DNA of 35,335 nt from Armatimonadota bacterium (GTDB taxonomy: Bacteria; Armatimonadota; Hebobacteria; GCA-020354555; CP070648), in assembly GCA_035527535.1 (NCBI GenBank), contig DATLAK010000175.1, positions 1-35,335 of the forward strand, given 5' to 3'. Below, one piece after another: positions 45 to 30,339 of this stretch. A model generated the notes under the pieces. The model saw only the letters and a program-made list of their open reading frames with translations, did no database searches and was not told the origin of the DNA. The position numbers and the translations under genes are program-made. Position 1 is the stretch's first letter, and every line of letters starts with the position of its first letter.

Positions 45-72
45 GTAGGGGCAAGGCATGCCTTGCCCCTAC
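45..72. repeat. 28-bp perfect palindrome (REP-like, GTAGGGGC family)
   Basis: Arms GTAGGGGCAAGGCA and its exact complement meet without a loop. A near-identical copy lies at 4110-4137, inside a larger inverted-repeat element, and diverged relatives starting GTAGGGG lie at 16221-16242 and 17657-17682. It is therefore a dispersed palindrome family rather than a local operator. The rest of 1-424 holds no gene, RNA or promoter that I can recognise. Confidence 0.8.
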
Positions 73-4050: not shown

Positions 4051-4190
4051 GGGTGTGACCGCGAAAGGTTGAGGCCACCCTGGGCGCGTAGTCTCCGGAC
4101 CGCACGGATGTGGGGGCAAGGCATGCCTTGCCCTTACGAGGTCGCGCCCGGGTGTGCGCCCAGCCATCCCAACGAGAAACGGTCGCCCCC
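4051..4190. repeat. MITE-like element, copy A (140 bp)
   Basis: The left end GGGTGTGACCGCG..GGTTG and the right end CCCAACG..ACGGTCGCCCCC are imperfect inverted repeats. The 28-bp palindrome family copy (4110-4137) lies between them. The element has the same architecture as 16181-16316. It carries no coding sequence, so any mobility would need a transposase in trans. Position 3780-4050 upstream shows nothing else I can name. Confidence 0.65.
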
Positions 4191-4659: not shown

Positions 4660-4670
4660 CAATTAAGAAA

Positions 4671-4850
4671 CCCCGCATGTGCCGTGTGTCTCTCCGTTTT
4701 TGAACCCGCCTAAGCAGGTGGGTGCTCTCGCCGACCGCTTCGCGATTCTCCCCGCTGTGCGGGAAGCTGCCACTCGGCGCCCGGACTCAAGCTCCCAGTT
4801 TTTGAGTGTTGGCTCAAAACTTCTGATGACAAGTCACGTGCACCGCAGGG
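4671..4850 (-). ncRNA. ssrS: Structured RNA, probable 6S RNA
   Basis: On the minus strand the ends form an interrupted long stem: CCCTGCGGTGCACGTGAC..GTC at 4850-4828 pairs with GACACACGGCACATGCGGGG at 4690-4671. Inside, AGTTTTGAG pairs with TTCAAAAAC. Further in are the hairpins ACTCAA/TTGAGT, CGCCGA/TCGGCG (around CCCGC/GCGGG) and ACCCACC/GGCGGGT. The roughly 180-nt length, closing stem, large internal loop, terminal stem and the small ACCCACC..GGCGGGT hairpin on the 3' side match 6S RNA as known from several phyla. 6S RNA mimics an open promoter and sequesters sigma70-RNA polymerase. A promoter at 4904-4876 supports transcription from this strand. Another structured RNA cannot be excluded without a covariance search. 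Confidence 0.55.
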
Positions 4851-4875
4851 TTTCTTTCTCGCTTATTCCATGAGC

Positions 4876-10996: not shown

Positions 10997-11147
10997 CACC
11001 GACCCGGCGCGGCCTGCCGGCGGGTGTGACTGTCTGTAATTGAGGGGGCCGAGGCACACAGCTGGAGGCGGCACCTCGATTCCTCGGGGTGCATCGGGCG
11101 CGCCCGCCCCCAACTTCTCGCGGTCCCACCCCCACAAATGGTTTGTG

Positions 11148-11274: not shown

Positions 11275-12315
11275 ATGATCAAAGTGGCGATAGCAGGAGC
11301 GACGGGCTACGGCGGGGTGGAGCTGGTGCGGCTGCTCAAGCGCCACCCGCGGGTCGAGCTCGTCCACCTCACCTCCGAGAGCTATGCCGGCAAGACGCTG
11401 GAACAGGTGTATCCCCACTTGCGCGGCGTCGCCCTCGAATTGCAGCCGCTCGATGCGGAGAGCCTGGCGGCGCAGGCCGAGTTCGTGTTCCTGGCGCTGC
11501 CCGCGGGCAAGGCGATGGAGTTGGCGCCGAAGTTGCTGGCGCGGGGCCAGCGCGTGATTGACCTGAGCGCGGACTTCCGCTTGCGCGACCCGGCGGCCTA
11601 TCCGCGCTGGTACGGCATGGAGCATTCGCACCCCGAGCTGCTGGTGGAGGCGGTCTATGGTTTGCCCGAGCTGCACCGCCCCGAGATGCGCGAGGCGCGG
11701 CTGGTCGCGGCGCCGGGGTGCTACCCCACGGGGGCGATTCTGGCCCTGGCGCCGCTGGTCAACGCCGGCTTGGTCAACGCCGGCCATATGATCGTGGATT
11801 CCAAGTCCGGGGTCTCAGGCGCCGGGCGCACCGCGCTCGAGCTGGCTTTTCACTACCCCGAGGCCAACGAGAACGTCGCCGCCTACAAGGTAGCGAATCA
11901 CCGCCACACGCCGGAGATGGAACAGGAGCTGTCGGCGCTGGCCGGCGTCGCCGTCACCGTCACCTTCGCGCCCCACCTGGTGCCGATGACGCGCGGCATC
12001 GCCACCACCGCCTATGCGCCGCTGCGGGCAACGGGCAGCGCGGGCGATCTGATCGCGGAGATGCGGCGCTTCTACGCGCGCGAGCCGTTCGTGCAGGTGC
12101 TCGATGAGCAGACCTATCCGCACACCCGGCAGACCGCAGGCGGCAATCTCTGCCAGGTTACCGCGCGGGTGGACGAGCGCGCGGGCACGGCGGTCGCCCT
12201 GTCGGCGATAGACAACCTGGGCAAGGGGCTGTCCGGCACCTGCGTCCAGTGCTTCAATGTCATGTGCGGCTTCGACGAGGACACCGCCATCGCCGAGCCG
12301 GGGCCGTATCCGTAG
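11275..12315 (+). CDS. argC: N-acetyl-gamma-glutamyl-phosphate reductase
   Basis: ArgC reduces N-acetylglutamyl-phosphate to the semialdehyde with NADPH, the third step of arginine synthesis. The 346-residue protein begins MIKVAIAGATGYGGVELVRLL (GATGY nucleotide-binding motif). It carries LVAAPGCYPTGAILAL with the catalytic cysteine, the SKSGVSGAGR loop and HRHTPEME. ATG at 11275 matches the family N-terminus but has a poor ribosome site; a TTG 33 bases earlier is possible. It is first in argC-argJ-argB-argD and is followed by a 24-bp palindrome. Confidence 0.96.
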   Translation: MIKVAIAGATGYGGVELVRLLKRHPRVELVHLTSESYAGKTLEQVYPHLRGVALELQPLDAESLAAQAEFVFLALPAGKAMELAPKLLARGQRVIDLSADFRLRDPAAYPRWYGMEHSHPELLVEAVYGLPELHRPEMREARLVAAPGCYPTGAILALAPLVNAGLVNAGHMIVDSKSGVSGAGRTALELAFHYPEANENVAAYKVANHRHTPEMEQELSALAGVAVTVTFAPHLVPMTRGIATTAYAPLRATGSAGDLIAEMRRFYAREPFVQVLDEQTYPHTRQTAGGNLCQVTARVDERAGTAVALSAIDNLGKGLSGTCVQCFNVMCGFDEDTAIAEPGPYP

Positions 12316-12332
12316 GGCAGGACCATCCCCTG

Positions 12333-12356
12333 TGGCACAGCCGCCCTCGGCTGTGC
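12333..12356. repeat. 24-bp palindrome, argC-argJ spacer
   Basis: GTG is followed by GCACAGCCG, a CCCT loop and CGGCTGTG(C). The same 24 bases occur at 14494-14517 between argB and argD, and inverted with one change at 16248-16271 upstream of argG. As RNA it would form a stable hairpin between cistrons. Confidence 0.75.
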
Positions 12357-12368
12357 GCGGAGCCATCT

Positions 12369-13613
12369 GTGACTGAAGACAGCCACGAACACGACGAAGT
12401 CAGCGCCCTGCTGTGGCACGCGCTCGAGGGGCAAGGCGTCACCGCCGCCGAGGGCTTCCGCGCGTCGGGGGTCGCCTGCGGCCTCAAGCCCAGCGGCGAC
12501 GCGGACCTGGCGCTGGTTGCCGGCGACCGCCCCTGCACTGCGGCGGGCGTTTTCACCACCAACCAGTTCAAGGCCGCGCCGGTCTTGCTCAACCAGGCGC
12601 GGGTCGCCTGCGGGCGCGCGCAGGCGGTGGTCATCAACAGCGGCAACGCCAACGCCTGCACCGGCGAGCAGGGCCGCCGGGATGCCGAGGAAATGGGTGC
12701 CATCGCGGCGCGCGAGCTGGGGATCGCGGAGCAACTGGTGCTGGTCGCATCAACCGGAGTCATCGGTCGCCCGCTGCCCATGGAGGCGCTGCGCGCCGGG
12801 ATTCCCGCCGCCCGCGCGGCGCTCAGTCCCGACGGCGGCGCGGCGGCGGCGCGCGCCATCATGACCACCGATACGCGCCCCAAGGAGCTGGCGCTGGAGA
12901 TGGAAATCGAGGGGCGCACGGTGCGCGTCGGCGCCATGGCCAAGGGCGCGGCGATGATCGGGCCCTGCCTGGCGACCATGATCTGCGTCATCACCACCGA
13001 CGCCGACATCGGCGCGCGGGAGCTCGACCTGGCGCTGCGGTGGGCGGTGGATCGCTCCTTCAACTGCATCACCGTTGACGGCGACATGAGCACCAACGAC
13101 ACGGTGCTGGCGCTCGCCAGCGGCGCCTCCGGGGCCAAGGTGCGACAGGAGGGGGACCGCCGCAAGTTCGAGCGCGCGCTCGATTTCATCACCGCGCGGC
13201 TGGCGCGCGCCATGGTCGCCGACGGCGAGGGCGCGACCAAGACCATCCAGGTGCGGGTCTCGGGTGTCACCGAGTACGAACAGGCGCGGCGGATCGCCAT
13301 GGCGGTCGCCAACTCGCCGCTGGTCAAGACCGCGATCTACGGCGCCGACCCCAACTGGGGGCGCATCCTGGCGGCGGCGGGGGCGGCGGGCGTGGAGTTC
13401 GATCCGGGGAAGGTCGAGCTATTGTTGGCCGGCATCCCGGTGGTGGGCGCGGGCGCCATGCTGCCGTTTGACGAAGCGCGCGCCCATGCGGCGCTGCAGC
13501 AGAAGGAGGTCGTGATTGATCTCGACCTGCGCGCCGGCCCGCAGTCGGCGACGGTGTGGACTTGCGACCTGACCGAGGAATACGTGCGCGTCAATGCCCA
13601 CTACACCACGTGA
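12369..13613 (+). CDS. argJ: Bifunctional ornithine acetyltransferase / N-acetylglutamate synthase
   Basis: ArgJ moves the acetyl group from N-acetylornithine to glutamate, recycling acetate in the cyclic arginine pathway; some members also use acetyl-CoA. The 414-residue precursor contains AVVINSGNANACTG, ASTGVIG and the autocleavage region KGAAMIGPCLATM, whose Thr203 becomes the N-terminal nucleophile of the beta chain. ITVDGDMSTNDTV and GADPNWGRILAAAG follow; ending in T-T rather than the usual Y-R-T is slightly unusual. The start is GTG at 12369 with GCGGAG upstream; the N-terminus has about 20 extra residues. It lies 53 bases after argC, across the palindrome, and 10 bases before argB. 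Confidence 0.95.
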   Translation: MTEDSHEHDEVSALLWHALEGQGVTAAEGFRASGVACGLKPSGDADLALVAGDRPCTAAGVFTTNQFKAAPVLLNQARVACGRAQAVVINSGNANACTGEQGRRDAEEMGAIAARELGIAEQLVLVASTGVIGRPLPMEALRAGIPAARAALSPDGGAAAARAIMTTDTRPKELALEMEIEGRTVRVGAMAKGAAMIGPCLATMICVITTDADIGARELDLALRWAVDRSFNCITVDGDMSTNDTVLALASGASGAKVRQEGDRRKFERALDFITARLARAMVADGEGATKTIQVRVSGVTEYEQARRIAMAVANSPLVKTAIYGADPNWGRILAAAGAAGVEFDPGKVELLLAGIPVVGAGAMLPFDEARAHAALQQKEVVIDLDLRAGPQSATVWTCDLTEEYVRVNAHYTT

Positions 13614-13623
13614 TCGCGGGGCC

Positions 13624-14484
13624 ATGATGGAAAACCTGCAACAGCGAGCCAACACGCTGATCGAGGCGCTGCCCTATCTGCGCGAGTTCTGGGGCGCGAC
13701 CATGGTCATCAAATACGGCGGCGCGGCGATGACCGAGCCGGCGCTCAAGGCTATGGTCTTGCAGGACGTGGTGCTGCTGCGCTACGTGGGGATGAGCCCG
13801 GTGCTGGTGCACGGCGGCGGCCCGGAGATCAGCGACCTAATGCGCCGGCTGGGCAAGGAGCCGGCCTTCGTGCGCGGCCTGCGCGTCACCGATGAGGAGA
13901 CCATGGCCATCGCCGAGATGGTGCTGGTGGGACGCATCAACCAGGACCTGGTGGCGGCGGTCAATGCCGCCGGCGGCAAGGCGGTGGGGATGTCGGGCAC
14001 GCACGGGCGCATGCTCAAGGTCACCAAGCAGACCGGCGAGGTGGACCTCGGGTTCGTCGGCAGCATCCAGGAGGTGGACCCGACTCTCATCCGCACCGTC
14101 AGCGCGCAGGGCTACATTCCCCTGATTGCGCCCATCGGCGTCGGCGCGGACGGCCGCACCTATAATATCAACGCCGACCACGCCGCGGGCAAGCTCGCGG
14201 GCGCGCTGGGGGCGACCAAGCTCATCGTCCTCAGCGACGTGGCGGGCATCCTGGCCGATGTCAAGGATGAGGGCTCGCTGGTGTCCTCCCTGACCGCCGA
14301 GCGCGCGCGGGCCATGATCGCAAGCGGGCAGGTCGAATCGGGGATGATCCCCAAGGTCGAGGCCTGCCTCGATGCGCTGGCGGCGGGCGTGCTGCGCTGC
14401 CACATCATTGACGGGCGCGCCCCCCATGCCCTGCTGATGGAGATCTTCACCGACGTCGGCATCGGCACCATGGTTGTGCCGTAG
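13624..14484 (+). CDS. argB: Acetylglutamate kinase
   Basis: ArgB phosphorylates N-acetylglutamate and in many bacteria is the arginine-feedback step. The 286-residue product has the amino-acid-kinase fold: VIKYGGAAM, PVLVHGGGPEIS, the RVTDEETMAIAEMVL stretch, NINADHAAGKLAGALGATKLIVLSDVAGI, and SGMIPKVEACLDAL at the C-terminus. The MENLQQRANTLIEALPYLREF N-terminal helix is the type found in arginine-sensitive kinases, so feedback inhibition is likely. Two ATGs in tandem (13624, 13627) could start it. It is tightly coupled to argJ. Confidence 0.96.
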   Translation: MMENLQQRANTLIEALPYLREFWGATMVIKYGGAAMTEPALKAMVLQDVVLLRYVGMSPVLVHGGGPEISDLMRRLGKEPAFVRGLRVTDEETMAIAEMVLVGRINQDLVAAVNAAGGKAVGMSGTHGRMLKVTKQTGEVDLGFVGSIQEVDPTLIRTVSAQGYIPLIAPIGVGADGRTYNINADHAAGKLAGALGATKLIVLSDVAGILADVKDEGSLVSSLTAERARAMIASGQVESGMIPKVEACLDALAAGVLRCHIIDGRAPHALLMEIFTDVGIGTMVVP

Positions 14485-14493
14485 CGCATCCAC

Positions 14494-14517
14494 GTGGCAC
14501 AGCCGCCCTCGGCTGTG
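14494..14517. repeat. 24-bp palindrome, argB-argD spacer
   Basis: Identical over 24 bases to 12333-12356 (GCACAGCCG arm, CCCT loop, CGGCTGTG arm). It sits 10 bases after argB and before the argD ribosome site. Confidence 0.75.
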
Positions 14518-14545
14518 TCCCTCCCACGGTATGAGGAATGCATCC

Positions 14546-15754
14546 ATGAACTACGACCAAGCCCGCGCCATCGAATCCCGGAACATGTTCGCGGTTTACG
14601 AGAAGATCCGCCAGCCCATGGTCATGGCGCGCGGCGAGGGCGCGTATGTCTGGGACACGCAGGGCAATCGCTACCTCGATCTCGTCAGCGGCGGCCGCGC
14701 GGTGACGGCGCTGGGGCATTGTCCGCCGGCGGTGGTCGAGGCGGTGCGCGAGCAGGCGGGGCGGCTCCTCCACATGTCCAATGACTACTTCACCGAGCCG
14801 CAGATGGAGCTGGCGCGCCTGCTGGGCGAAGTCTGCGTCTGTCCGCGCGTTTTCTTCTGCAACAGCGGCGCCGAGGCCAACGAGGCCGCGATCAAGCTCG
14901 CGCGCAAGCACGCGCGCACCCACCACGGCCCCGACCAGTTCGAGATCGTGACCATGCTCGGCTCCTTCCACGGCCGCACCATGGCGACGCTGGCGGCGAC
15001 CGGGCAGCCCAAGTACCAGGCGGAGTTCGCGCCCCTCGTCCCCGGCTTCAAGCACGTCGAGTTCAACCACACCGCGGCGCTCGAGCAGGCGGTGAACGAG
15101 CGCACCTGCGCGGTGATGCTGGAGCCGGTGCTGGGGGAGAGCGGGGTCTATCCCGCGACCGCGGCATTCATGCGCGCCTGTCGCGGGGCGTGCGACCGCG
15201 TCGGCGCGCTGCTCATCCTCGACGAAGTCCAGACCGGTCTCGGGCGCACCGGCAAGCTATTCGCTTACGAGCACTACGACGTGCGCCCCGATGTGATAAC
15301 GCTGGCCAAGGCGCTCGGCAGCGGCATGCCCATCGGCGCGATGCTGGCGACGGACGAGGCGGCGACGGCGTTCGCGCCGTCGGACCACGCCTCCAGTTTC
15401 GGCGGCGGGGCGCTGGCGGCGGCGGCGGCGCTGGCGGGGGTGAGAACCATCATTGATCAGAGGATAGCGGACAACGCGGCGAGGATCGGCGCGCGCCTGC
15501 TCGCGGGGTTGCAGAATCTCGCGGCGAAGTATCCGGTCATTACCGCCGTGCGCGGGATAGGCATGATGCTCGCCGCGGATCTCGCGCAGCCGGTGGCGGC
15601 GGAGGTGCGGGCGGCGTGCCTGCGGCGCAGCGTGCTGATCCAGGTCGTGGGCGACTCAATGCTGCGCTTCATCCCGCCGCTCATCCTCGCCGCCGAGCAG
15701 GCGGACGCCGGGCTGGCGGCGCTCGACGAGGCGTTAGGTGAGGTCGCGGGATAG
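14546..15754 (+). CDS. argD: Acetylornithine aminotransferase
   Basis: This PLP-dependent class III aminotransferase converts N-acetylglutamate semialdehyde to N-acetylornithine. The 402-residue protein shows VWDTQGNRYLDLVSGGRAVTALGH, VFFCNSGAEANEAAIKLARK (phosphate-binding loop), GSFHGRTMATLAATGQPKY, LLILDEVQTGLGRTGKLFAYEHY (Asp that holds the PLP nitrogen) and ITLAKALGSGMPIGAML with the Schiff-base lysine. The ATG at 14546 has GAGGAA upstream. It could also act on succinyl-diaminopimelate precursors, as ArgD does in some species. It completes the C-J-B-D order typical of arg operons. Confidence 0.95.
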   Translation: MNYDQARAIESRNMFAVYEKIRQPMVMARGEGAYVWDTQGNRYLDLVSGGRAVTALGHCPPAVVEAVREQAGRLLHMSNDYFTEPQMELARLLGEVCVCPRVFFCNSGAEANEAAIKLARKHARTHHGPDQFEIVTMLGSFHGRTMATLAATGQPKYQAEFAPLVPGFKHVEFNHTAALEQAVNERTCAVMLEPVLGESGVYPATAAFMRACRGACDRVGALLILDEVQTGLGRTGKLFAYEHYDVRPDVITLAKALGSGMPIGAMLATDEAATAFAPSDHASSFGGGALAAAAALAGVRTIIDQRIADNAARIGARLLAGLQNLAAKYPVITAVRGIGMMLAADLAQPVAAEVRAACLRRSVLIQVVGDSMLRFIPPLILAAEQADAGLAALDEALGEVAG

Positions 15755-15769
15755 TCACACGGACCTGTC

Positions 15770-16123
15770 ATGTCCGATACCATCGTTATGATCGCCGTTG
15801 TCTTCGCGGTGCTGCTCCTGATCAGCTTCATGCTGGTGGTGCGGCTGCAGTCCGGGGGCGCGTCGCGCGCGGCGGCGAATTTGCTCATCGCCGAGCTGTG
15901 GCTGACCTTCGGGGTGATCGTCGCGCTGCTCGTGGCTATATCGAAGACACTGGGCCCGCCGGCGGCGGTCGGCCTGATGGGCGGCGGATTGCGCGACATC
16001 GGCGCCAGGTTCGTCGCGCTGAGCGCCGAATCCCAATGGCTGGTCGGCATTGGCGGCGTAATGGCCATCGGCCTGCTGGCGCACCTCATGTATGCCATCA
16101 ATCGCGCCACCAGATGCAGTTGA
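15770..16123 (+). CDS. Small membrane protein in the arg cluster, function unknown
   Basis: The protein (117 residues) has hydrophobic helices at about 4-25 (IVMIAVVFAVLLLISFMLVV), 38-60 (LLIAELWLTFGVIVALLVAI) and 90-110 (WLVGIGGVMAIGLLAHLMYAI), so it probably crosses the membrane three times. It starts 15 bases after argD with no clear ribosome site and would be co-transcribed. I recognise no family. Its place between argD and argG might hint at an arginine or polyamine link, but it may be there by chance. Confidence 0.65.
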   Translation: MSDTIVMIAVVFAVLLLISFMLVVRLQSGGASRAAANLLIAELWLTFGVIVALLVAISKTLGPPAAVGLMGGGLRDIGARFVALSAESQWLVGIGGVMAIGLLAHLMYAINRATRCS

Positions 16124-16180
16124 ACCGCGGAGCGGATACGGAAACAGATCATTACTGCTTTTCTCTGCGTTCTCAGCATC

Positions 16181-16316
16181 GGGTGTGACCGCGGAAAGTT
16201 GGGATCGGTCGCGAGAACCTGTAGGGGCGCACGGCGTGCGCCGCCTTCACAGCCGGGGGCGGCTGTGCCACATTCGGGCACATAACCGGTCACCCCAACC
16301 AAGAACGGTCACACCC
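16181..16316. repeat. MITE-like element, copy B (136 bp)
   Basis: The terminal inverted repeats share a perfect GGGTGTGACCG followed by (A/G)GTTGGG: 16181-16204 on the left, 16293-16316 on the right. Between them are a GTAGGGGCGCAC palindrome relative (16221-16242) and an inverted copy of the 24-bp arg palindrome (16248-16271). The architecture matches copy A at 4051-4190. It ends 30 bases before argG and may separate argG expression from the upstream genes. Confidence 0.75.
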
Positions 16317-16346: not shown

Positions 16347-17549
<1,203 letters not shown>

Positions 17550-17586
17550 CCGCAGCCGCGCCGCAACAATCGTAGGGGCGCAATTC

Positions 17587-17709
17587 AGAAGCTGTCTCGT
17601 AATCCCCGGAAACGGGTCGGGATGGAACCCGACCCCTACGGTCCACGCGCACGGTCGTAGGGGTCGGCCTCCTGGCCGACCCGGCACCTGCAATTGTGGG
17701 ACAGCTTCT
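17587..17709. repeat. Inverted-repeat element between argG and the phosphatase
   Basis: The 10-bp ends AGAAGCTGTC (17587-17596) and GACAGCTTCT (17700-17709) are perfect inverted repeats around about 100 bp. That interior holds two more palindromes: GGGTCGG..CCCGACCC near 17614-17635, and GGGTCGGCC..GGCCGACCC at about 17661-17682. The second belongs to the GTAGGGG family. No coding sequence is present. A MITE or nested REP insertion is likely. Confidence 0.6.
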
Positions 17710-17747
17710 TCACCGCGCCCTCCGCCACCGGCAGACGGGGAGATCGC

Positions 17748-26019: not shown

Positions 26020-27126
26020 ATGCTGATCGGGGTTCCACGCGAGACCAAGGACGGGGAGAAGCGGGTCGCCATTACCCCGGCCGGCGTCACCGCTCTGCGC
26101 CAGCACGGGCATGAGGCGCTGGTGGAAGCGGGGGCGGGGCGGGGCAGCGGCTACGAGGACGAGGACTACTGCGTCGCCGGCGGGGCCATCGCGGCGACCG
26201 CGGACGCGGTCTGGGCGCGCGCCGAGGTGGTGCTCAAGGTCAAGGAGCCGCTGCCCAGCGAGTACGCCCGGCTGCGCCCGGAGCTGGTGCTCTTCACCTA
26301 CCTGCACCTGGCGTCATCGGAGCCGCTGACGCGCGCGCTGCTCGATTCCGGCGTCACCGCCATCGGCTACGAGACCGTGCAGACGGATGCGGGCGCCCTG
26401 CCCCTGCTGGTGCCCATGAGCGAGATCGCGGGGAAGATGTCGGTGCAGATCGGCGCGCGCTATCTCGAGGCCGACTTCGGCGGCCGCGGCGTGCTGGTGG
26501 GCGGGGTGCCGGGGGTGCCGCCGGCGGAGGTGGTCATCATCGGCTGCGGGGTGGTGGGCATCAATGCCGCCAAAGTCGCCATGGGCCTGGGCGCCCATGT
26601 CACCATCCTCGACGTTGACCACGAGCGCCTGCGCTACCTCGACGACATCATGCACGGCAACGTCATCACCGTCTATTCCAATTCCTTCAACATAGCGCGC
26701 GCGGCGGGCTACGCCGACCTGCTGGTGGGGGCGGTGCTGGTGGCGGGGGCGCGCGCGCCCAAGCTCGTGACCGCCGACATGGTGCGCGCGATGAAGCGCG
26801 GCGCGGTGATCGTGGATGTGGCGGTGGACCAGGGGGGATGCGTGGAGACGATACGGCCCACCAGTCACTCGCAGCCGACTTATGTCGAGCACGGGGTCAT
26901 CCACTACGGGGTGCCCAACATCCCGGCCGCGGTGCCGCGCACTGCCACCCACGCCTTGACCAACGCGACTCTGCCTTACGTCCTCGATCTCGCGGACTAC
27001 GGCCTTGACGACGCCCTCGCGCGCAACCCCGCCCTGGCGCGCGGGCTCAACCTGCGCACGGGGGAAATCATCCACCCGGCGGTGGCTGAAGCCTTTAATT
27101 CCGGGGACAGTCGACTTAATTATTGA
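26020..27126 (+). CDS. ald: Alanine dehydrogenase, 3' end replaced by mobile-element sequence
   Basis: Ald interconverts alanine with pyruvate plus ammonia using NAD. The protein has the canonical residues Arg15, Lys75 (VLKVKEPLPSEY) and His96 (FTYLHLAS). The NAD fold is VVIIGCGVVGINAAKVAMGLGAHVTILDVD, and DVAVDQGGCVET carries the catalytic Asp. HGVIHYGVPNIPAAVPRTAT is also typical. GGGAGG precedes the ATG at 26020. The last nine residues, NSGDSRLNY, and the stop come from the 26-bp terminal repeat of the RAYT element at 27097. Relatives usually continue about a dozen residues (G-L-P-type tail), so the natural C-terminus is lost. The active site is intact. Confidence 0.95.
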   Translation: MLIGVPRETKDGEKRVAITPAGVTALRQHGHEALVEAGAGRGSGYEDEDYCVAGGAIAATADAVWARAEVVLKVKEPLPSEYARLRPELVLFTYLHLASSEPLTRALLDSGVTAIGYETVQTDAGALPLLVPMSEIAGKMSVQIGARYLEADFGGRGVLVGGVPGVPPAEVVIIGCGVVGINAAKVAMGLGAHVTILDVDHERLRYLDDIMHGNVITVYSNSFNIARAAGYADLLVGAVLVAGARAPKLVTADMVRAMKRGAVIVDVAVDQGGCVETIRPTSHSQPTYVEHGVIHYGVPNIPAAVPRTATHALTNATLPYVLDLADYGLDDALARNPALARGLNLRTGEIIHPAVAEAFNSGDSRLNY

Positions 27127-27846
27127 CGCACAACCGCAATCGTGGTACAAGGGGGCCATGCCACGGGTCGGACGGATCGTTGTGCCAGGCGTACCTCATC
27201 ATGTCACCCAGCGCGGCAACCGCGGCATGGACGTTTTCTTCAGCGACGCTGACCGCGCCGCCTATCTCAGGCTGCTCGGGGAATGTAGCGCCGAGCACGG
27301 CGCCGACCTTTTCGCCTATTGCCTGATGTCGAATCACGTGCATTTGGTTCTGTCGCCACAGCGCGAAGACAGTCTCGCCCTGGCCGTCGGCTGGACGCAC
27401 TTTCACTACACTCGGCGGGTGAACTTCCGCAAGGACTGGCGCGGGCATCTGTGGCAGGGGAGGTTCCATTCCTGCGCGCTGGATGACGCGCATTGTCTGC
27501 GAGCGATTCGCTACGTCGAGCTTAATCCCGTGCGCGCCGGGTTGGTTGAGCAACCTGAGCAGTGGCCCTGGTCAAGCGCCCCGGCGCATCTCAACCATGC
27601 CCCTGACCCGGTGCTCGCGCCGCGGCCGTGGCGGACTGAAGAACTCGACTGGGCGGAGTTCCTGAGTCAGGGCACATCGGAGGCCGACCTGACGCAGGTG
27701 CGACGCAAGACCCGGACTGGCCGGCCCCTGGGCGAAAGTGGGTTCATCGAACAACTGGAATCCCAGCTCGGCCGGCAGCTTCGCTGCCGCAAACCGGGGC
27801 CAAAGGGGCCGAGAAAGCCGTAATTAAGTCGACTGTCCCCGGAATT
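27097..27846. mobile_element. RAYT transposon with perfect 26-bp inverted repeats
   Basis: AATTCCGGGGACAGTCGACT plus TAATTA (27097-27122) recurs as an exact reverse complement at 27821-27846, framing one transposase gene in 750 bp. The left repeat lies inside the 3' end of ald; the right one begins at the transposase stop codon. The same palindrome, without a transposase, occurs at 29236-29300. REP-associated transposases (IS200/IS605-like Y1 enzymes) are known to act on such palindromes. No clear target duplication is seen. Confidence 0.9.
27158..27823 (+). CDS. REP-associated tyrosine transposase (RAYT, Y1 family)
   Basis: RAYTs are single-strand-acting Y1 HUH nucleases related to IS200 TnpA that cut at REP palindromes. 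The 221-residue protein begins MPRVGRIVVPGVPHHVTQRGNRG, the family N-terminus. It has YCLMSNHVHLVL with the metal-binding His60-x-His62 pair, HYTRRVN with the likely catalytic Tyr84, then the family signatures GHLWQGRFHSCALDD and AIRYVELNPVRAGLVE. A basic C-terminal tail (RKPGPKGPRKP) follows. All motifs are intact, so it may be active. The stop codon is the first triplet of the right inverted repeat, so gene and repeat interlock. Confidence 0.93.
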   Translation: MPRVGRIVVPGVPHHVTQRGNRGMDVFFSDADRAAYLRLLGECSAEHGADLFAYCLMSNHVHLVLSPQREDSLALAVGWTHFHYTRRVNFRKDWRGHLWQGRFHSCALDDAHCLRAIRYVELNPVRAGLVEQPEQWPWSSAPAHLNHAPDPVLAPRPWRTEELDWAEFLSQGTSEADLTQVRRKTRTGRPLGESGFIEQLESQLGRQLRCRKPGPKGPRKP

Positions 27847-27887
27847 CCCCTGAATGAGGAATAGAGACGCAGAAACGAGCAGGAGCT

Positions 27888-28352
27888 ATGGAGGAGATGG
27901 GACACGAGACGGTGGCGGTGGTGGAGGCGCCCACCATCGCGAAGCCCGCGCTGCTGACGGACAATGGCTCCGGCTACATTGCCGCCGCCATGGAAGACTT
28001 CCTGCGTCTGCTCGGATTCGCCACCTGCGGGGCCGAGCGCATCACCCGCAGACCACCGGCAAGATCGAGCGGATGCACCGCACGATGAAAGACGATGTCA
28101 CGCTGGTGGTGTGGACCAGCCCGGAGGCCCTGGCCACGGCCATCGGCCGCTTCGTGGACTATTACAATTCCAAGCGCTATCACGAGGCGCTGCGGAATGT
28201 GACGCCAGACGATGTCTACTTCGGCAGAAGGGAACAGATCCCTTGCCCGGCGAAAAGCACTCCAGATCAAGACCTTGATCGCTCGCCGGGACGCCTACCG
28301 GAGACGCGGGATGCTATGCGAGGAAGCAGGGCCAGGAGCACCGGAGGGGTAG
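27888..28352 (+). pseudogene. IS transposase remnant (DDE integrase core), frameshifted
   Basis: Three consecutive pieces in different frames add up to the C-terminal half of an rve-type transposase (IS3/IS481-like). KPALLTDNGSGYIAAAMEDF (about 27940-28010) carries the second Asp. HHPQTTGKIERMHRTMKDDV (about 28045-28105) carries the catalytic Glu and is followed by YYNSKRYHEALRNVTPDDVYFGRRE. A third frame from 28239 reads SLARRKALQIKTLIARRDAY to a stop at 28350-28352. The first catalytic Asp and the N-terminus are missing. The sequence just after (ACCCCCATTTCGTCTCAC, about 28361-28378) looks like an IS right end. It is inactive. Confidence 0.8.
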
Positions 28353-28417
28353 CTTGTTTTTACCCCCATTTCGTCTCACAAACGCTGACTCTCTACAGGG
28401 TACAGATCCTTGACCTC

Positions 28418-28678
28418 ATGTCTGAGAAAGCTCAGGTCAAGGACTGCATCCACGCGCTAAAGGATATGACCCTCCGGTATGAAGACATACACGCTGCCGG
28501 AATGAACAGGTCTCCTGGCGACGTCGTTCATCTCCATACATCTCACGCTCCCAAGCTGGAACCTAGCCACCTACACGTCACTTCTGAAGAGCAAGCAATT
28601 ATCCCTGTCTATAATGCCGACATCACCGGTTTGTTGACACCCCCTCACACCGTTCTTCTCCAATGGACAGTAGACTAA
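28418..28678 (+). CDS. Hypothetical small ORF in the low-G+C island
   Basis: An 86-codon frame (MSEKAQVKDCIHALKDMTL at the start) runs from ATG 28418 to a TAA that overlaps the stop of the opposing acetyltransferase by a few bases. It has no good ribosome site, and I recognise no family; its His- and Pro-rich second half may be fortuitous. A 10-bp inverted repeat (TCCTTGACCT / AGGTCAAGGA, about 28407-28443) spans its start, which would fit an operator or hairpin. It belongs to the A+T-richer segment between the IS remnant and rlmN. Confidence 0.25.
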   Translation: MSEKAQVKDCIHALKDMTLRYEDIHAAGMNRSPGDVVHLHTSHAPKLEPSHLHVTSEEQAIIPVYNADITGLLTPPHTVLLQWTVD

Positions 28679-29166
28679 AGAGACAGCTCCATTTTACAGC
28701 GATCCACCATGGTTCCGTTCGACATCTTTTGCCCCGTCTTTTCGGACATTTCAAAACCACATCTATGATAACAACGCTGTGCGCGCACATTGCTAAGGTC
28801 AGTATAAAGCTCAAGAGACGCAAAACCTCTCAAGCGCAAGTTTTCAATCATCTCCTTAATAACATACTGACCAATTCCCCGTCCCTGATGCGTCGGGAGC
28901 AATGCAATCACTTTTATGAACACTTGCTTACTTTCAGATGAAAGACCATTTATACCCAGCCAGCCTATCGGCATACCTTCATCACAAATTATGTAGTTCT
29001 CCTCATCTGGATCGTTGTCCCATTCGATTATGGCATCTGCCCAAACATCTACGGATCTGGGGACCTCATGTAGTATCGCCATTATCTGATCACTGCTCAT
29101 GAGTTGTTGTAGGAACACCGCATCGTTCTGGGTTACTCGCCTGACCTCGATATTCTCCATTGCCAT
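28675..29166 (-). CDS. GNAT acetyltransferase, horizontally acquired
   Basis: The protein (163 residues) is a single GNAT domain. It begins MAMENIEVRRVTQNDAVFLQQL, has MPIGWLGINGLSSESKQVFIKVIALLPTHQGRGIGQYVIKEMIENL with the QGRGIG acetyl-CoA loop, and ends with LELYTDLSNVRAQRCYHRCGFEM. Substrates of such enzymes range from amines and antibiotics to protein N-termini. Codon use is A/T-rich (many AAA, ATT, GAA), unlike every neighbour, so it is a recent arrival. The start at 29166 follows GTGAGGA. It sits inside the RAYT/REPIN-bounded island between ald and rlmN. Confidence 0.88.
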   Translation of the reverse strand: MAMENIEVRRVTQNDAVFLQQLMSSDQIMAILHEVPRSVDVWADAIIEWDNDPDEENYIICDEGMPIGWLGINGLSSESKQVFIKVIALLPTHQGRGIGQYVIKEMIENLRLRGFASLELYTDLSNVRAQRCYHRCGFEMSEKTGQKMSNGTMVDRCKMELSL

Positions 29167-29235
29167 TTTTTCCTCACATAACGATATCAAATATTCCAGC
29201 AGTCCATTATTATTAAGGAATCATGGGGGAATCAT

Positions 29236-29300
29236 GGGGACAGTCGACTTAATTATTGCAGATGCCTTAAATCAATCGCAATTAAGTCGACTGTCCCCAC
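29236..29300. repeat. REPIN-like hairpin of the RAYT palindrome
   Basis: GGGGACAGTCGACTTAATT and its exact complement (29236-29254 and 29280-29298) face each other across about 25 bases. The arms are identical to the inner part of the RAYT element ends at 27097-27846. No transposase is between them, as in REP doublets mobilised in trans by a RAYT. On the minus strand the left-hand reading enters rlmN and provides its stop codon. Confidence 0.85.
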
Positions 29301-30339
29301 AATTAGGGCGGCCAGCCGCCAGCTGCCCGCACGCCGCCGCCACCTCTTCGCCGAAGGACCGGCGCACCGCGACTTCCACCCCCCGGCGCTCCAGCTCGGC
29401 GCGAAAGGCGCGCATAACCGCAGGCGCGGGGCGGGCGAAGGCGCCGCGCGCCTGGTTGTAGGGGATGAGGTTGACCATGCACGGCAGGCCTCGCAGCCGC
29501 TGGGCGAGGGCGGCGGCCTGGGCCGGCGCGTCGTTGACCCCCGCCAGCAGGCAATACTCGAAGGCTACTTTGCGTCCGGTGTGGGCGGCGAAGTCGCGCG
29601 CGGCGGCGACCACCGAGGCCAGCGGATGGCGGCGGTTGACCGGCATCAGGCGGCTGCGCAGGTCGTCGTCGGGCGCATTGAGCGATACCGCCAGGTGCAC
29701 GCCCAACCCCTCGCGCGCCAGGCGGCGCATCTCCGGCGGCAGCCCGCACGTGGAGATGGCGACGTGGCGGGCGCCGAAACCGAGGCATGCCGGGTCGAGG
29801 ATGATGCGCACCGCCTTCACCAGCGCGTCGTAGTTTGCGAGCGGCTCGCCCATGCCCATGAACACGACATTGGACAACCGGCGCTCGTCATCATCCGCGC
29901 GCGCGAGGAGCAATTGCCCGACGATTTCGGCGGCGGTGAGGTCGCGCTCGAAACCCATGCCGCCGGTGGCGCAGAACGCGCAGCCGTAGGCGCACCCCAC
30001 CTGGCTGGAGATGCAGGCGGTGCGACGGCGCGGGTAGGGCATGATCACCGTCTCGATGTGAGCGCCGTCGGGCAGGCGCAGCACCAGCTTGACGCCGCCG
30101 TCGCGGGCCGGGCGCCGCGCAACCGCGGTCAACGGGTGCACCGCCGCCTGTCGTCCCAGCTCGTCCCGCAGCGCCTGCGGCAGGTCGCTCATGTCCGCGA
30201 AGCCGCGCGCCCCGCGCTGGTATACCCAGCGCAGGACCTGGCGGGCGCGATAGGGCTCGTGCCCGCGGTCGGACAGGAGCTGCTCGAACTCGTGGGGCAA
30301 CAGGCCGCACACGAAAGGCATGGAAGGCATGGATGACAT
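29272..30339 (-). CDS. rlmN: 23S rRNA/tRNA adenine-C2 methyltransferase, with REP-derived tail
   Basis: RlmN is a radical-SAM enzyme that methylates A2503 of 23S rRNA and A37 of some tRNAs. The 355-residue protein has ACISSQVGCAYGCAFCATG with the cluster cysteines Cys116, Cys120 and Cys123. NVVFMGMGEPLANYD, HVAISTCGLPPEMRRLA, the HLAVSLNAPDD stretch and the methyl-carrying Cys337 (AAACGQLAAG) follow. The final residues NCGDSRLNCD and the stop are encoded by the adjoining REPIN; the natural end should be near AAGRP. The start is uncertain (ATGs at codons 1, 4 and 7, none with a clear ribosome site). Confidence 0.94.
   Translation of the reverse strand: MSSMPSMPFVCGLLPHEFEQLLSDRGHEPYRARQVLRWVYQRGARGFADMSDLPQALRDELGRQAAVHPLTAVARRPARDGGVKLVLRLPDGAHIETVIMPYPRRRTACISSQVGCAYGCAFCATGGMGFERDLTAAEIVGQLLLARADDDERRLSNVVFMGMGEPLANYDALVKAVRIILDPACLGFGARHVAISTCGLPPEMRRLAREGLGVHLAVSLNAPDDDLRSRLMPVNRRHPLASVVAAARDFAAHTGRKVAFEYCLLAGVNDAPAQAAALAQRLRGLPCMVNLIPYNQARGAFARPAPAVMRAFRAELERRGVEVAVRRSFGEEVAAACGQLAAGRPNCGDSRLNCD

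Follow-up and report, generated by a model that had tools for sequence, protein, structure and literature searches.

The 35,335-nt stretch analysed here (the window) is contig DATLAK010000175.1 from an Armatimonadota bacterium. It carries an arginine gene cluster, with argC, argJ, argB, argD, and argG all on the forward strand (Table 1). Three spacers of this cluster contain copies of one short palindrome. Very probably this is a small mobile repeat of the repetitive extragenic palindrome (REP) type with a dedicated REP-associated tyrosine transposase (RAYT), the copies in the argC-argJ and argB-argD spacers being single insertions and the copy upstream of argG having been carried by an element resembling a miniature inverted-repeat transposable element (MITE). 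The positions given by the initial annotation are borne out: two identical 24-bp copies lie in the first two spacers, and an inverted copy with one change lies just upstream of argG. The 24-bp identical part, GTGGCACAGCCGCCCTCGGCTGTG, comprises the core GGCACAGCCGCCCTCGGCTGTG and a 5' GT. The core is found at 12334-12355 and 14496-14517 (both forward and exact) and at 16248-16269 (reverse), where the single change is T to C in the loop, CCCC replacing CCCT. Its expected count, from 100 dinucleotide shuffles of the window, was 0.00.

Table 1. Features of the arginine cluster and related elements (positions in the 35,335-nt window, 1-based, forward strand).
Feature	Position	Strand	Remarks
Shorter relative of the inverted-repeat element	11022..11131		Upstream of argC; REP absent inside, no target duplication seen
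argC	11275..12315	+	Pfam
GTGG-tagged REP copy 1	12332..12355	+	argC-argJ spacer; hairpin end 13 nt 5' of argJ start
argJ	12369..13613	+	Pfam
argB	13627..14484	+	Pfam
GTGG-tagged REP copy 2	14494..14517	+	argB-argD spacer; tag starts 9 nt past argB stop
argD	14546..15754	+	Pfam
MITE-like element, 136 bp	16181..16316		Terminal inverted repeats GGGTGTGACCG at both ends; carries copy 3
Second palindrome GTAGGGGCGCACGGCGTGCGCC	16221..16242	+	GTAG palindrome, tag outward; hybrid pair with copy 3
GTGG-tagged REP copy 3, loop CCCC	16248..16271	-	75 bp 5' of argG start, within MITE-like element
argG	16347..17549	+	Pfam
RAYT-like gene, not cognate	27158..27823	+	34% identical to cognate group; no palindrome copy within 10 kb

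The repeat unit is about 25 nt long and can be written YGTGG-CACAGCCG-CCC[TC]-CGGCTGTG, with the GTGG tag directly at the 5' foot of an 8-bp stem and a loop of 4 nt. Across the 65 copies with full flanks, conservation runs from the T of TGTGG to the last base of the stem and stops sharply on both sides. There are 24 compensatory pair changes in the stem in 65 copies, against a mean of 2.8 and a maximum of 9 in 2000 shuffles, and stem subfamilies such as CAGGCG..CGCCTG and CACCCG..CGGGTG are visible by eye. As single-stranded DNA the unit is predicted to fold into a hairpin of -9.9 kcal/mol, with GTGG unpaired at its 5' foot. In a 2018 survey of HuH enzymes (PMC6006769), short REPs are defined by GTAG or GTGG at 0-2 nt 5' of a hairpin whose stem measures 7-20 and whose loop measures 2-5, and this unit conforms to that rule. 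The remaining traits of the GT[AG]G superfamily of REPs are also present: many, mainly extragenic copies, paired changes in the stem, and frequent inverted dimers. The GTGG form of the tag has precedents, as most GTAG-20 elements of O. terrae carry GTGG and not GTAG (Di Nocera et al., 2013; PMC3733652), and a TnpA-REP is still able to cut beside a GTGG tag (PMC8266576). A hairpin at 818-844, which had been annotated as a weaker relative, proved to be something else. It is a perfect hairpin between convergent genes that shares only the arm CACAGCC/GGCTGTG with the REP, and is not a member of the family: its loop is different, its stem is longer, and the GTGG tag is missing.

The genome assembly (3.24 Mb in 192 contigs, 95.75% complete) contains 66 places within three mismatches of the palindrome, 16 of them exact, on 50 contigs; a reversed-pattern control gave none. 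All except the arginine triple, 63 of the 66, are elsewhere. Outside predicted genes lie 53 copies (41 between two genes and 12 at the edge of a stretch, with no gene overlapping), whereas intergenic DNA makes up 14.4% of the sampled loci. The other 13 fall within a predicted gene, an assignment that is uncertain because the gene calls behind these inside and outside counts come from a simple codon-usage script. Genes next to copies elsewhere are of mixed function, including a sulfatase, a Na/H exchanger, an oxidoreductase, an amidohydrolase, and arginyl-tRNA synthetase (ten proteins scanned, three of them without a Pfam family). Inverted pairs less than 150 bp apart with their tags outward, the form that dimers of known REP families usually take (PMC3733652), occur twice, on contigs C52 and C191. 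Opposite-strand neighbours 0.05-1.8 kb apart also have their tags outward, in all seven of a small number of cases (contigs C38, C45, C52, C65, C92, and C191, and window positions 14496/16248). Outward pairs enclosing genes at longer range were considered as a possible arrangement and rejected, since in other genomes the outward bias is seen only below 150 bp.

Beyond this genome, named genomes contain the exact 24-mer in at least 120 stretches, from members of the Planctomycetota, Hydrogenedentota, Verrucomicrobiota, and Acidobacteriota. Copy numbers within two mismatches range from 1 to 681 in 24 of these genomes, with controls at 0. Neighbouring copies less than 150 bp apart in other genomes have their tags outward in 53 cases, inward in one, and are in tandem in 51, many of the tandem copies forming arrays with periods of 27-39 bp. 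The 24-mer is also present in 15 contigs of a viral collection. In the window's own phylum, copies with 0-1 mismatch are confined to four of 151 genomes: the genome itself (29), a family mate (three), and two others (one each). The nearest relative, G025, has nine copies within two mismatches, none of them in the three arginine spacers. Around argJ in 12 relatives of the same class, some represented by short stretches and one in which argC is not adjacent to argJ, the palindrome was absent at up to five mismatches. Stem diversity is greater among the copies of the window's genome than in the comparison set, an unfair test given that the latter was chosen by exact match; such diversity would be compatible with a population that a single enzyme no longer constrains.

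Genes for Y1 transposases (PF01797) are present in all 24 copy-bearing genomes. Among 90 RAYT loci (30 + 60 picked from about 155 listed), none lies between two copies of the palindrome, and at two of them, L206 and L207, only one side has a copy, at a distance of about 1 kb. Several of the 90 are flanked by other GTAG hairpins, and the reading of flanks therefore works as a method. RAYT genes were likewise not found in stretches of up to 8 kb around the copies in named genomes and the viral collection (L066-L200). Comparison of RAYT and copy positions identified one RAYT gene between two outward copies, L298 in G018 (Acidobacteriaceae), apparently frame-broken. With this gene as seed, a search of 25 genomes gave seven matches at 54-58% identity, in Planctomycetota, Hydrogenedentota, and Acidobacteriota, all seven flanked on both sides by the palindrome with tags outward. 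None of the other 22 matches fetched is flanked by it at up to four mismatches, and one of these (L324, 47% identical) lies between copies of a variant hairpin. In a fresh test with another member of the group as query, on 12 further genomes plus G012, three matches at 49-55% were found, all from a single genome (G179) and all three flanked. None of the other 24 matches is flanked, and the next closest ones have variant GTGG hairpins beside them. All four members of the group that were tested score above the cut-off of NCBIfam NF047646 ('REP-associated tyrosine transposase'). The REP and this group of RAYTs thus belong together, since close members of the group are flanked by the REP and others are not. 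More distant RAYTs carry other GT[AG]G hairpins, and the hairpin changes along with RAYT divergence. In some of these (L306, L321, L322, L323, L324, L341, L363, and L364) the foot is kept and the loop and upper stem shift stepwise, a series that could be a useful set for studying recognition.

Between genomes the cognate RAYTs are about 47-65% identical, with an unchanged REP; two near-copies within G179 are 80% identical. In a first tree the eight REP-flanked RAYTs form one clade (SH-aLRT, an approximate likelihood ratio test, 95). In a second, with the three new sequences and more relatives, all 11 fall within a group of 15 (93/93) alongside four RAYTs with variant REPs, so that strict monophyly of the REP-flanked RAYTs is unsupported. 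A single clade of the Acidobacteriota sequences is not rejected (p 0.14), and the trees therefore do not show horizontal transfer; transfer between phyla is possible. Eight genomes with a cognate RAYT have higher copy numbers than 15 that lack one (p 0.02, for a small and unevenly chosen set that leaves out G012, G000, and G025).

Some results weigh against a dedicated RAYT as the agent of these repeats. Three RAYT-type genes are found in the window's own genome, on contigs C149 and C61 and in the window itself, and none of the three has this REP beside it. The REPtron layout of known RAYT/TnpA-REP systems, in which the HuH transposase gene has a copy of its own REP on either side (PMC8266576, PMC6006769), is thus seen here in other genomes and not in this one. 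The C149 gene (L065) is flanked by GTAGGGGCCGATCTCCTGATCGGCCC. The best match to the cognate group in the assembly, at 44%, is the C61 gene, which is in a different repeat array, and in 13 class mates the best is 42%. Among the copy-bearing genomes (G001-G024 without G012), 15 of 23 show no RAYT of the group at 54% identity or more. The conservation profile is also biased, since gathering copies by their match to a consensus favours the conserved positions. As for the missing gene, either it is in the unassembled part of the genome, or it has been lost, or a different enzyme serves the REPs. The C61 gene (L063) itself is embedded in dense arrays of GGGCGCGGGGTTCTNCTAACCCCGCG hairpins.

The reading that best accommodates both sets of results is still that of a mobile REP with a dedicated RAYT. 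A single-stranded REP would fold into a hairpin with the GTGG tag free at its 5' foot. The RAYT, an HuH/Y1 enzyme, would most likely recognise tag and hairpin, cut beside the hairpin, and copy the REP or an outward-tagged pair to new places, with the surviving copies mostly between genes. The argC-argJ and argB-argD copies would then be single REP insertions, and the argG-upstream copy would have travelled within the 136-bp inverted-repeat element. The window's lineage would once have had this RAYT or would have borrowed another enzyme, and any effect on arginine mRNA would be a side effect.

The element that carries copy 3 has relatives elsewhere in the genome. The hybrid pair of copy 3 and GTAGGGGCGCACGGCGTGCGCC recurs on contigs C113 and C176 and partly on C182. 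Perfect 8-bp target duplications border the sister elements on C113, C176, and C92; at the arginine copy the flanks are TCAGCATC and TCAGCGGC, with six of eight letters alike. The C113 and C176 sisters are about 91-92% identical and the C92 sister is more distant, with a different palindrome inside. The fold predicted for the element (139 nt taken) is -79 kcal/mol. A near-identical relative of the C92 palindrome, GTAGGGGCAAGGCATGCCTTGCCCCTAC, with a GTAG tag at both ends, is found at window positions 45-72 and 4110-4137. Ends of the GGGTGTGACCG type are over-represented in the window, with eight sites at 0-1 mismatch against 1.1 expected (positions 211, 4051, 11022, 11121, 13262, 16181, 16306, and 20455), and the single ones may be decayed copies of the element. 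The elements resemble MITEs with terminal inverted repeats in their length of 136-142 bp, their GGGTGTGACCG ends, and the perfect 8-bp duplications at three sites, and differ in that the interior is filled with REP palindromes that vary by site. An autonomous partner was not found, no genome-wide search for one having been made. Because copy 3 rides in this element, the three arginine copies arrived by at least two routes; copy 3 probably came, or was copied, with its carrier, and two kinds of mobile unit would have come together by chance in the arginine triple.

A mobile repeat may still acquire a function where it lands. Hairpins in the arginine mRNA could shield the upstream message from 3'-5' decay or slow translation across the spacer, a supplement to the REP reading that would not displace it and that is rather doubtful as things stand. 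Copy 2 starts 9 nt past the argB stop codon, and 13 nt separate the end of copy 1 from the argJ start. REPs of E. coli that lie no more than 15 nt downstream of an open reading frame have been discussed as translational control elements (PMC12306157), a distance that the spacing of copy 2 matches. The RNA hairpin is predicted at -12.7 kcal/mol, and the copies are without a terminator-like T tract. By analogy with the role proposed for E. coli REPs, the spacer hairpins may affect how fast the message decays or how it is translated, but the copies are not conserved in relatives.

The clustering within one pathway had been suggested to reflect either a shared role in regulation or mRNA processing of the arginine genes or local spread of a repeat. 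The repeat part of this holds; a shared arginine role fails because the 66 copies are on 50 contigs and 53 of them are outside predicted genes. Local spread holds in part only, as copy 3 is in a different mobile unit. An arginine-specific element, whether a shared operator of the ArgR-like kind or an RNA processing site tuning these genes, is thus very unlikely. Three copies do lie within 4 kb of genes of one pathway, one further copy lies after the arginyl-tRNA synthetase gene, and the hairpins are stable when folded in mRNA. The tight triple (within 3915 bp) has a chance probability, calculated post hoc, of 0.016 on the basis of the 29 copies with 0-1 mismatch, but of 0.17 on the basis of all 66, so the clustering is only mildly unusual. 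The corresponding spacers of G025 and the arginine loci of the 12 class relatives are without a copy. No match to ArgR (PF01316) was detected in the genome by a search that was positive in nine of 14 control genomes. Copy 3, moreover, is inverted and carried by another element. Altogether, the presence of the palindrome in the arginine cluster looks incidental.

It is about as improbable that the palindrome spreads without any RAYT, solely as a passenger of inverted-repeat MITEs. Copy 3 is within such an element, and three of its sisters have perfect target duplications. Against this, among the loci examined in the window's genome a complete inverted-repeat pair together with the palindrome was found only on C113, C175, and C176, copies 1 and 2 consist of the 25-nt unit alone, the C92 sister holds a different palindrome, and a RAYT is flanked by the palindrome in other phyla. 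Least probable of all is an intrinsic terminator or attenuator: the hairpins are G+C-rich and lie between genes, but no T run follows them, a terminator scan was negative at all three places, and copies are found in both orientations and, for 13 of 66, inside predicted genes.

As a mobile REP, the palindrome belongs to a new family of an already known type. Like other GT[AG]G short REPs (PMC3733652, PMC6006769), it has its tag at the foot of the hairpin, a stem of 8 and a loop of 4, a high copy number with mostly intergenic copies, compensatory subfamilies, and a predominance of tags-outside (HH) pairs. It differs in carrying GTGG and not GTAG, as do most of the O. terrae elements mentioned above, and in having the same letters in at least four phyla. 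Its consensus was not found in the literature searched, with supplements and figures beyond reach, and a literature search for the sequence gave only an unrelated Echinococcus paper. The difference from known REPtrons is twofold: the cognate RAYT is absent from the window's assembly, and the RAYTs diverge between genomes while the REP stays constant. The surprise is one identical REP across phyla. A tentative extension, possible but not favoured, is that a single REP-RAYT pair has spread between phyla, with the REP identical to the letter, the transposase drifted to about 50% identity, and the recognition code frozen. The pair, or the REP alone with a resident enzyme, would have invaded new phyla, and the genome studied here, which stands nearly alone in its phylum sample, would be an invaded host with orphan REPs. 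RAYTs are held to be vertically inherited (PMC8049555), and an identical REP in different phyla, with 0-1-mismatch copies in so few genomes of the window's phylum and many in only one, offers a test of that view. One REP and one RAYT group across phyla are also a natural test of how these enzymes read a hairpin. For the arginine genes, a tempting regulatory story is removed and the probable agent named.

Other features of the window include further repeats of these general kinds. At 27097-29320, the RAYT-like gene of Table 1 is bounded by inverted repeats GGGGACAGTCGACTTAATTA, with further copies of the repeat at 29226-29255 and 29280-29320; this layout fits the TIRtron plan, with the GGGGWSAS motif, as described in PMC3733652. 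A long inverted repeat at 17572-17720 has GTAG hairpins GTAGGGGTCGGCCTCCTGGCCGACCC and inverted GTAGGGGTCGGG.., a plan like that of the hairpins flanking the C149 RAYT. A 6S RNA is found at 4666-4854 on the reverse strand, with a score of 95.7 bits.

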